Positions 1,796-48,801 of a DNA stretch of 64,000 nt are shown piece by piece. The notes beneath the pieces were generated by a model. The model saw only the letters and a program-made list of their open reading frames with translations. It made no database searches and had not been told where the DNA came from. The position numbers and the translations under genes were made by a program. The stretch comes from Natranaeroarchaeum sulfidigenes (lineage in GTDB: Archaea; Halobacteriota; Halobacteria; Halobacteriales; Natronoarchaeaceae): assembly GCF_017094485.1 (NCBI RefSeq), contig NZ_CP064786.1, forward strand, positions 2,046,001 through 2,110,000, given 5' to 3'. How positions within the stretch are numbered: the stretch's first letter is position 1; each line of letters begins with the position of its first letter.

Positions 1796-1945
1796 GCCCG
1801 GGTGGCTTAGCTGGACATAGCGCCGCACTCATAGGGTTCAGAGATTCGGTGCGGTACCTTGGAAGCCTCTCATGTCCACACGAGGACTGCCGAGCCTCGA
1901 ACCTGGGACATGCGGAGATCGAGGGTTCGGAGCCCTCCCCGGGCA
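1796..1945 (+). tRNA. Elongator tRNA-Met (CAT) with intron at 1834-1909
   Basis: The acceptor strands GCCCGGG (1796-1802) and CCCGGGC (1938-1944) pair fully, with discriminator A at 1945. The T arm is GAGGG-TTCGGAG-CCCTC (1921-1937). The anticodon CAT is at 1830-1832 in the stem CCGCA/TGCGG. Between A37 and position 38 lies an intron of about 76 nt (1834-1909). Its ends can pair (GGGTTC with GAACCT), as expected for the bulge-helix-bulge recognised by the archaeal splicing endonuclease. An intron of this size at this place is known in elongator tRNA-Met of Haloferax. The exact boundaries may shift by one or two bases. Tandem copies of its 3' end follow downstream. Confidence 0.93.
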
Positions 1946-2107
1946 CTGGCTTTCTACGCGACGTCACGAACGTAGTGAGTGACGAGTTCCGAAAGCCAGT
2001 GCCACATGTGGGCGGAGAACCCGTAGGCTCTCGTGAGTGAGTGCAGCGAACGATCGAAAGTACGGGAGAGCATAGCTCTCCCGGTTGTTCGGAGCCCTCC
2101 CCGGGCA
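1946..2107 (+). mobile_element. tRNA-tailed unit 1 after tRNA-Met (162 bp), candidate mini integrative element
   Basis: The 21 bp at 1925-1945 (tRNA positions G53 to A73) recur exactly at 2087-2107. Between the copies lie: hairpin 1 (CTGGCTTTC at 1946-1954 pairs with GAAAGCCAG at 1991-1999); a segment GGGCGGAGAAC (2010-2020) that can pair with GTTC-GGA-GCCC of the tail copy; and hairpin 2 (CGGGAGAGC at 2063-2071 with GCTCTCCCG at 2075-2083, 3-nt loop). The copy is followed by TTTTCA. It could be the product of site-specific insertion at the tRNA 3' end, or a structured RNA with a tRNA-like tail. No ORF is present. A similar unit follows tRNA-Ser at about 48.6 kb. Confidence 0.6.
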
Positions 2108-2241
2108 TTTTCAACTGTCACGAACCTCGTGTGAGTGACAACTCAGGAAATCCCGGGGTGGAGAACCCGTAGGATCTGCACGAGCGAAGCGAGTCCAGAG
2201 GAGAGAAGCGCCTGCTCTTCTCGTCGTTTGGAGCCCTCCCC
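2108..2241 (+). mobile_element. tRNA-tailed unit 2 after tRNA-Met, decayed copy
   Basis: A second unit follows directly. It has the same order of parts: hairpin 1 (TGTCAC/GTGACA around 2117-2141), GGGTGGAGAAC (2156-2166), CGAGCGAAGCGAG, a GAGAAG/CTTCTC hairpin, then a degenerate tail at about 2227-2245 that keeps 12 exact bases of the tRNA-Met tail (2230-2241). The 14-mer GGAGAACCCGTAGG occurs in both units (2014-2027 and 2160-2173, 146 bp apart). The decay of the tail suggests this is the older unit of the tandem pair. Confidence 0.5.
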
Positions 2242-2319
2242 TGGAACTTCCAGAACGACACAACCGTCGGCGAACGTCCGTCCCGAAGGATTTTTTGTCC
2301 AGTGTATACCTTCCAGCGT

Positions 2320-38071: not shown

Positions 38072-38343
38072 ATGTTTCACCACGGGCGTTGGGTGGTTCA
38101 GCCGGGAGCCCGGCCACATTCCGTCCTGTCGATGACAGGTGCCCGCTGGGGCCCGTCGTCCAGCGAGTTACTCTGGAATACCGCTGTTCGGAGTTTAAGA
38201 CCTTCGAAAGCACCTGCGAGACTCCTGGCAGGATCCGAGTAAGTTGAAATTTCGCCGGGTAATACCGTAGTGTGCCACTGAAAGCTCGCGGTACTGCTAA
38301 TAGCAGTATCATTACAAAGAGGCCGATCGTCTTACGGGAATCT

Positions 38344-42669: not shown

Positions 42670-42768
42670 ATGATGGATATGACACGAGAGGACTCCTCTC
42701 AGTCGGATTCCGAGGATAGAGGAAGTCGGGGCAACCCGGCTGGGCGCGAAATTCTCGGGGACGAGTGA
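42670..42768 (+). CDS. Small ORF (32 aa) upstream of the LeuA-type synthase
   Basis: Starts ATG-ATG and encodes a polar peptide MMDMTREDSSQSDSEDRGSR followed by GNPAGREILGDE, with TGA ending 7 bp before the GTG of the synthase. The codon use and composition look haloarchaeal. A TATA-like element is 20-25 bp upstream, so this could be the first translated frame of a leaderless transcript. It has no run of Leu or Ile codons, which argues against classic attenuation. It might be a small protein, a uORF or chance. Confidence 0.4.
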   Translation: MMDMTREDSSQSDSEDRGSRGNPAGREILGDE

Positions 42769-48398: not shown

Positions 48399-48570
48399 GC
48401 GCAAATGAGGTGACACATAGATAAAACATTTTTCCTAAAGCTGGGCTAGAGCGCCTATAATGTCATTTACGGGCGTTTGCTTGCCAGCAAGTTACGTATC
48501 AGCAGCTATTGAGTTCACGTTCACGAGTGCGAGCGACACGAAGGTCTCTCGCCGTCTTGCTTCGTGAAAA
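48399..48570. other. Intergenic region downstream of the tRNA-Ser tail unit
   Basis: 172 bp with no ORF. It contains a second, weaker hairpin (TTCACGA...TCGTGAA on the minus strand, around 48525-48570, with inner GCGAGAGAC paired to GTCGCTCGC with one mismatch). This resembles hairpin 1 of a further decayed unit, though no third tRNA tail is visible. Confidence 0.35.
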
Positions 48571-48716
48571 CGCCGAGGAGGAGATTTGAACAACGCGAAG
48601 ACGGTCGCTTCCGTCGGTCGTGCTGCGTCTTCTCTCGTTCAAACTCCACAGTGACGTTCTATCGACACGGGGTGAGAGACACAGAGGTCTCTCACCAGAC
48701 GTTGCGTCGATAGAAG
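48571..48716 (-). mobile_element. tRNA-tailed unit after tRNA-Ser (146 bp), candidate mini integrative element
   Basis: The 21 bp at 48717-48737 (tRNA positions G53 to G73) recur exactly at 48571-48591, 146 bp away. Read on the minus strand the unit holds: hairpin 1 with outer stem TTCTATCGAC/GTCGATAGAA (48706-48715 with 48657-48666) and inner stem GGTGAGAGAC/GTCTCTCACC (48687-48696 with 48671-48680); then GGAGTTTGAAC (48637-48647), which can pair with GTTCAAAT-CTCC of the tail copy; a GAAGACG/CGTCTTC hairpin; then TT plus the tail and TTTTCA. The order of parts matches the tRNA-Met units. Confidence 0.6.
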
Positions 48717-48801
48717 CGCCGAGGAGGAGATTTGAACTCCTGTGTCCGGATGGACAGTTGCTCTCGAAGCAACCGCCTTGGCCAGGCTAGGCTACCTCGG
48801 C
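48717..48801 (-). tRNA. tRNA-Ser (CGA)
   Basis: Read on the minus strand: acceptor GCCGAGG pairs with CCTCGGC, discriminator G. The anticodon stem is GTTGC/GCAAC around the loop TTCGAGA with anticodon CGA. A long variable arm (CTGTCCATCCGGACAC region) marks a class-II tRNA. The T arm is AGGAG-TTCAAAT-CTCCT. Length 85 nt, no intron. The minus-strand TATA-like GATAAACT (48826-48833) is about 28 bp upstream. The 3' end is duplicated 146 bp downstream. Confidence 0.93.

Follow-up and report, generated by a model that had tools for sequence, protein, structure and literature searches.

Self-complementary units that copy the 3' end of the adjacent tRNA form arrays behind haloarchaeal tRNA genes

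Introduction

Why should the DNA behind a tRNA gene hold further copies of the end of that very tRNA, each accompanied by a segment that can pair with it? The question is raised by a window of 64,000 nucleotides (the whole stretch of Natranaeroarchaeum sulfidigenes DNA analyzed here), part of a single 3.04 Mb haloarchaeal chromosome contig. An original prediction, made from the window alone, had pointed to three such pairing segments (anti-tails) behind a tRNA-Met and a tRNA-Ser gene and had proposed a folded RNA or a hairpin DNA substrate with a tRNA-like 3' end. We describe here what these units are, how widely they occur and which process might move them. They represent a conserved, fast-changing and sequence-programmed structure found downstream of about half the tRNA genes in one archaeal genome. 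Whichever way they are read, they bear on the question of how tRNA genes deal with their role as the principal docking site of mobile elements.

Units behind tRNA-Met and tRNA-Ser

The window contains two units behind the elongator tRNA-Met gene, the second of which (2108-2246) ends in a degraded tail copy, and one behind tRNA-Ser(CGA) (Table 1). The tRNA-Met gene was missed by Rfam and by ARAGORN in its default setting, and was found by ARAGORN once introns were allowed. All three predicted anti-tails are present at the positions given in Table 1. The exact tail copies of both arrays begin with the T-loop GTTC (tRNA nt 53) and have the discriminator (nt 73) as their last nucleotide, so the tRNA-like 3' end that had been proposed stands as sequence; a rule that the exact copies are preceded by TT and followed by TTTTCA proved to be local, not general. 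The Ser unit and Met unit 1 fold much better than expected (z = -4.8 and -3.5), with 0 of 200 dinucleotide shuffles as good in either case, and Met unit 2 taken by itself is not significant against such shuffles (z = -0.5). The 5' arm of the H1 hairpin left behind the last Ser tail is the one found after the first Ser-CGA tail in the sister species. Other Rfam matches in the window were a leuA-Halobacteria RNA (42705-42757, +) and an eL15-Euryarchaeota leader (38090-38139, -).

Table 1. Positions of tRNA genes, hairpins, anti-tails and tail copies in the two arrays of the window
Feature	Position	Strand	Sequence or remark	Evidence
Elongator tRNA-Met(CAT) gene	1796..1945	+	76-nt intron; host gene of the array	ARAGORN allowing introns; BLAST match in 52/59 relatives
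Tail T1 of tRNA-Met	1925..1945	+	nt 53-73, GTTCGGAGCCCTCCCCGGGCA	
H1 hairpin, Met unit 1	1946..1999	+	tandem-GA tip GTCAC-GA-AC-GTA-GT-GA-GTGAC	fold, tip scan
Anti-tail, Met unit 1	2010..2020	+	GGGCGGAGAAC	sequence; pairing columns in aligned Met units
H2/H3 hairpin region, Met unit 1	2021..2086	+		fold
Tail copy T2, Met unit 1	2087..2107	+	21 nt, identical to 1925-1945	
H1 region, Met unit 2	2108..2151	+	tandem-GA tip 2116-2140	tip scan, covariance model
Anti-tail, Met unit 2	2156..2166	+	GGGTGGAGAAC	
H2/H3 hairpin region, Met unit 2	2167..2225	+		covariance model R1 match 2108-2246, 100.7 bits
Degenerate tail copy T3, Met unit 2	2226..2246	+	GTTTGGAGCCCTCCCCTGGAA	
tRNA-Ser(CGA) gene	48717..48801	-	own tail T1 = 48717-48737	ARAGORN, Rfam RF00005
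H1 hairpin, Ser unit	48657..48716	-		fold
Anti-tail, Ser unit	48637..48647	-	GGAGTTTGAAC	sequence, fold
H2 hairpin, Ser unit	48592..48636	-		fold; same H2 in sister species
Tail copy T2, Ser unit	48571..48591	-	exact, 21 nt	
H1 remaining behind last Ser tail	48510..48570	-	TTTTCACGAAGCAAG...	comparison with sister species

The structure of the units is firm. Reading outward from the tRNA there is a short T-rich start, a near-perfect H1 hairpin, 10-20 nt, the anti-tail, H2 (H2 and H3 behind tRNA-Met) and the tail copy, 75-200 bp altogether. The complementarity of the anti-tail is best over the T-loop and T-stem, and the tail copies begin at tRNA nt 53 and end at nt 73. Direct repeats of this stretch bound every unit, so that the tRNA is left intact. 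In many units H2 forms a stem that has a tandem-GA tip and carries the motif AGTCRC..CRTCT, which sets T opposite T. A small number of H2 classes can be distinguished, and they are met again behind other tRNAs and in other genera. The GA tips favor the tRNA-sense strand by 57:1 in H1 and 60:1 in H2, and the T-T motif was found 35 times on that strand against 0 for its mirror, indicating that one strand folds. No cargo genes are found in the units, which are palindromic stretches between tails, nor does any unit seen carry a recombinase of its own. The GA hairpins were also considered as kink-turns or H/ACA motifs, a reading that was dropped given that the sequence has neither a 3-nt bulge nor a conserved ACA box. 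Behind Arg-TCT, Ala-CGC, Gly-TCC and Asp in the window's genome, tail copies devoid of the T-loop are preceded by a second hairpin module, GCAAACAAACCGCGTTTGCTCA; in one of these stretches (L101) it is repeated at 75-nt spacing.

Units behind about half of the tRNA genes

We have examined the regions downstream of the 44 tRNA genes of the window's genome with a strict rule: the tRNA's own nt 53-73, with up to 4 of the 21 positions mismatched, no more than 330 nt away and with other tRNAs masked. An own tail copy was found behind 23 of the 44, in 20 cases together with an anti-T-loop, and a looser alignment score raised the number to 28. Foreign tRNA tails passed the strict rule in 3 of 1268 tests; the binomial figure for own versus foreign tails, 8e-49, is optimistic, as the tRNAs are not independent. 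By the same rule the sister species has own tail copies behind 22 of its 43 tRNAs, and a control genome from another class of the phylum behind 0 of 20. When the anti-tails were compared with 42 tails, the own tail ranked between 1 and 6 for most unit-bearing tRNAs of the window's genome, with exceptions that include Phe and one Met-CAT. The units are specific for the tRNA that they follow and complementary to themselves. The units first predicted are real, but their apparent confinement to two tRNAs is not: about half of the tRNA set is covered.

The survey together with the foreign-tail swap control rules out that only Met and Ser are involved or that the copies arose by chance. Duplication of tRNA genes was likewise ruled out, since the copies begin at nt 53 and other tRNAs had been masked. 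As a separate observation, integrase genes are found within 1-4 kb downstream of Glu-CTC, Pro-GGG and Tyr-GTA in this genome, all three devoid of units, and behind none of the 28 unit-bearing tRNAs (Fisher p = 0.04).

Age and covariation of the Met unit

Units of equal layout are located behind the orthologous tRNA-Met genes of relatives. A covariance model (R1) built from 12 of these units gave strong matches in about 75 of 292 haloarchaeal genomes, and the ones fetched were nearly all directly behind the elongator tRNA-Met. In an alignment of 79 Met units, 48 of the 50 pairs had changed on both sides and 86% of the cells pair. The covariation score, calculated on an alignment fitted to the model, was 0.407, compared with 0.169 for shuffled alignments (0 of 500 as high) and at most 0.07 for slid partners. 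Lineages with an altered tRNA-Met tail (GTTCAAAACCC, CCCGCCCCGGCCA, CCCACCCCGGCC) have the tail of the unit altered likewise. The Met units thus make up a family that is old and covaries; the covariation between anti-tail and tail that had been read from three units is borne out at this scale, and a search of the haloarchaeal genomes returned further matches with compensatory changes.

Distribution across archaea

We scanned one genome per species from 84,980 prokaryote species with the pattern GGATTTGAAC-N30-60-GTTCAAATCC, in which no tRNA is demanded and the final 11 nt of the tail may have any sequence. At least 120 stretches were retrieved, and among the matches listed 106 come from haloarchaea or two near relatives. 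Of these 106, 91 have a tRNA immediately upstream, in the same orientation, with which the tail copy agrees at 17-21 of 21 positions; 67 of the 95 units in the listed stretches have an exact tail copy, and 16 amino-acid types are covered. The remaining 15 are accounted for by the end of a contig, by a tRNA that ARAGORN had missed or by a decayed tail that still follows a tRNA, and on this basis we rejected the idea that they were cargo-bearing elements located farther off. Virtually all the assessable haloarchaeal matches listed lie just behind a tRNA and copy the end of that tRNA, and cargo is absent from all 106 listed stretches. In a sampled search, the exact pattern was present in 172 of 292 Halobacteria genomes and in 62 of 77 genera; the reversed pattern was present in 0 of the 292, and the exact anti-tail/hairpin/tail pattern in 0 of about 164 genomes elsewhere in the phylum.

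The units also recur in one DPANN archaeon. A Woesearchaeota MAG (L172) with one pattern match has tRNAs followed by a unit layout of the haloarchaeal type, with own-tail copies behind 10 of the 31 tRNAs examined by the strict rule (16 by the looser one) and three tandem copies behind Pro-TGG. A second genome of the same phylum has an own-tail copy behind 1 of 12 tRNAs by the strict rule, and the exact pattern, the sensitivity of which is low in such genomes, was found in 1 of 194 genomes of that phylum. Transfer or independent origin may account for this case.

Viruses were considered as carriers and rejected, the 11 pattern matches in IMG/VR looking unrelated (hairpins of prophage tRNA-Met sites or seemingly coding sequence). 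A query with H2 matched no phage record and one plasmid record. Two bacterial observations are worth recording. Bifidobacterium genomes and viral contigs have a near-perfect hairpin, GGATTTGAACCRTG...GTTCAAATCCATG..., apparently at the tRNA-Met attachment site, a possible bacterial parallel, and an Alphaproteobacteria MAG (JAGOQV010000033.1, 1-200) has tandem tRNA 3' ends with encoded CCA and an anti-T-loop between them.

Gain, loss and exchange of modules

We have compared the tRNAs of the window's genome (G000) with those of the sister species of the genus (G001). Behind Gly-CCC there is a 104-bp unit in G000, and in G001 the tail directly joins the same flank; the reverse is found at Cys, filled in G001 and empty in G000. 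His and Leu-TAA have one extra unit in G000, in the tRNA-proximal position. Each filled and empty pair, drawn from two species only, is compatible with gain as well as with loss. H1 has been replaced with its flanks kept at Gly-GCC, Thr-TGT and Gly-TCC, and the same has happened to H2 at Gly-TCC and Glu-TTC. The Ser-CGA arrays have the 5' arms of H1 swapped between two tails, with 3' arms that match their new partners; an inversion of the whole array was discarded, as the loop sequences are not inverted and excision followed by re-entry at homologous hairpins is the better fit. Where units stand in tandem at Arg-CCT, Phe and Ser-TGA, H1 and the anti-tail are identical and H2 differs, the switch being at the anti-tail, and behind a Val-CAC tRNA (L232) one class of H2 is inverted between anti-tail and tail. 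Whole modules are what changes, at borders set by the T-loop and the tRNA end. As a side observation, Asp-GTC of G000 has about 50 nt of extra hairpin sequence within the H1 stem relative to its G001 ortholog, which suggests hairpin nesting.

The tail copies have more mismatches per 21 nt the farther they are from the tRNA (2.1, 3.6 and 6.0 for copies 1, 2 and 3; p = 0.0013 for copy 1 versus copies 2 and 3). A 363-kb plasmid of Haloarcula halophila (NZ_CP119561.1) carries an array of 19 tRNAs in which a unit with H1, anti-tail and H2 (approximately 1430-1600; L333) splits a tRNA with a Cys-like anticodon region exactly at nt 52/53, the predicted border of the core.

Part of this behavior might come about passively, if palindromes next to tRNAs were amplified, exchanged and deleted by homologous recombination, together with import of foreign DNA, and no dedicated enzyme took part. 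Haloarchaea recombine across species, the 21-nt direct repeats account for precise loss, and exchange at repeats can yield the identical H1 and anti-tail with different H2 seen at Arg-CCT, Phe and Ser-TGA. Homologous recombination between neighboring tails could explain loss and some of the shuffling. It leaves unexplained, however, how a T-loop copied in reverse came to lie behind about twenty different tRNAs, the constant border at nt 53, the strand-specific tips and the equal layout in the Woesearchaeota genome, and as an account of the whole we regard it as rather unlikely.

Folded DNA or folded RNA

One strand folds, and the original prediction had left the choice between RNA and hairpin DNA. 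If the unit were cotranscribed with the tRNA and folded, tRNase Z could cut after each tail, and the small RNA so released would end like a tRNA. The fold lies immediately 3' of a transcribed gene, covariation is strong, with compensatory changes in 48 of 50 pairs, and tandem-GA tips are common RNA motifs, all of which would suit such an RNA. In a folded RNA, G-U pairs are expected to outnumber A-C mismatches. The acceptor and T stems of the tRNAs of the window's genome behave in this way (GT:AC 17:1), whereas the H1 stems have 5:5 among 742 Watson-Crick pairs; the H1 stem finder, which was applied to these stems and not to the tRNA stems, penalised all mismatches equally. The columns of the Met units gave 37:32 for H1, 75:68 for the tail/anti-tail helix P1 and 28:14 for H3, and the anti-tails of the window's genome 21:6, the last two being in favor of RNA. 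Against it, the Met H1 helix shows AU/GC double changes with almost no GU intermediates, entire hairpins are swapped out and one H2 is inverted, the units have no match in Rfam 15 at gathering score, and an RNA role would not require that the copied stretch be the tRNA's own acceptor strand.

Taken together, the even GT/AC counts of the H1 stems, the strand-specific tips, the precise presence or absence of units and the inverted H2 lean toward folded DNA, with the anti-tail counts mixed, and we consider a structured RNA unlikely. Were it to be one, a new class of tRNA-linked RNAs would be at hand.

A proposed folded single-strand recombination site

A folded DNA strand could be mobilized in more than one way. 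A mini-transposon of the IS200/IS605 single-strand type, similar to the PATEs, would have H1 and H2 as end hairpins, the anti-tail as guide, the tail copy as cleavage site and the tRNA tail as target. The arrangement of hairpin, guide and cleavage site resembles that of IS608, with the anti-tail 5' of H2 pairing, and covarying, with the tail 3' of H2; the target choice of IS608 is reprogrammable by altering the paired bases (PMC5934647), and transposase-free palindromic elements exist in haloarchaea (PMC3119063). However, there is no guide to be seen between the tail and H1, the anti-tail pairing covers 10-20 nt instead of 4, and every unit is at a tRNA, not dispersed over a short target. A Y1 transposase (PF01797) was absent from the window's genome, which is a single contig, and from five other unit-bearing genomes, and a resident Y1 transposase was rejected as the mover. 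A mini-transposon of this type seems to us improbable.

Folded single-strand sites are also used by integron integrases, which act on attC, and by Xer, which acts on the hairpin attP of phage CTX. The reading that we tentatively prefer, although we would give it somewhat less than an even chance, is that the units are tRNA-tail cassettes, attC-like elements that recombine at the T-loop. The sense strand would become single-stranded, e.g., during replication, and the anti-tail would pair with the tail copy, generating a double-stranded T-loop core site on the H2 stem. A recombinase, most likely of the tyrosine type and using the T-loop as overlap region, would then join the tRNA gene, at its T-loop, to this folded site. 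New units would enter beside the tRNA, and older ones would shift outward and decay. Loss could proceed by recombination between tail repeats, a special enzyme being unnecessary for this step. The host might benefit, for example if the units act as decoy attachment sites that spare the tRNA, or they may be purely selfish.

An integrase that crosses over within the T-loop must supply everything from the T-loop to the 3' end to keep the tRNA whole, so the copied stretch, nt 53-73, fits an attachment site. The T stem-loop is in fact the attB of some archaeal integrases (PMC8371274). Tyrosine recombinases (PF00589) were present in 17 of the 17 genomes tested, a count that says nothing specific because this superfamily includes Xer-type proteins. 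A broader version would make tRNA genes a cassette platform in archaea, with folded ssDNA units recombining at the universal T-loop and hairpin modules traded among nearly all tRNA genes and between genomes, each unit taking the 3' end of its tRNA; this extension is more doubtful.

Comparison with known systems

In the open-access full-text literature (subscription papers were possibly missed) we found no description of these units, although tRNA integration remnants, PATEs and tRNA-targeting integrases are described, and the tRNA-tail cassettes are apparently undescribed. They appear new in kind because they lack features that define integrons, IS605-type elements or integrative elements. Partial copies of a tRNA that remain near it after integration (PMC9897764) are similar, but they are single and lie about 9-23 kb apart, whereas the copies in units are approximately 100 bp apart, repeated and self-complementary. 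With archaeal integrative elements targeted to tRNAs the units have in common that the tRNA 3' end is repeated directly at the outer border (nt 53-73 in the units), the restoration of an intact tRNA and the T stem-loop that some archaeal integrases use as attB (PMC8371274); they differ in being tandem stretches of 75-200 bp, with no integrase or cargo and with an inverted copy of the T-loop. The haloarchaeal PATEs, SMRs and IS605-type ends are also small, palindromic and transposase-free (PMC3119063). PATEs and SMRs are dispersed, and SMR-A target other mobile elements, while the units are tRNA-specific and found only behind tRNAs.

Closer to the proposed mode of action are the hairpin attP of phage CTX and other Xer-dependent elements, where two complementary segments flanking a hairpin generate a double-stranded core on one strand; here the core is the T-loop of a tRNA instead of dif, and the unit is non-coding and of about 100 nt. 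By analogy, the units would work most like attC cassettes. As in integrons, there are arrays of small cassettes behind a fixed site, and an imperfect inverted-repeat end folds as one strand with strand-specific unpaired bases. Even the AAC...GTT bracket around the hairpin is shared, the rest of the consensus RYYYAAC...GTTRRRY being different (the units have ...TTTGAAC...GTTCAAA...). Integron cassettes carry genes and the units do not, and the latter insert at the T-arm/3' end of each different tRNA, their outer arms copying that tRNA. If the units are indeed a folded-strand recombination system, which can be tested in genetically tractable haloarchaea, the cassette logic of integrons would extend to non-coding units and to tRNA genes.
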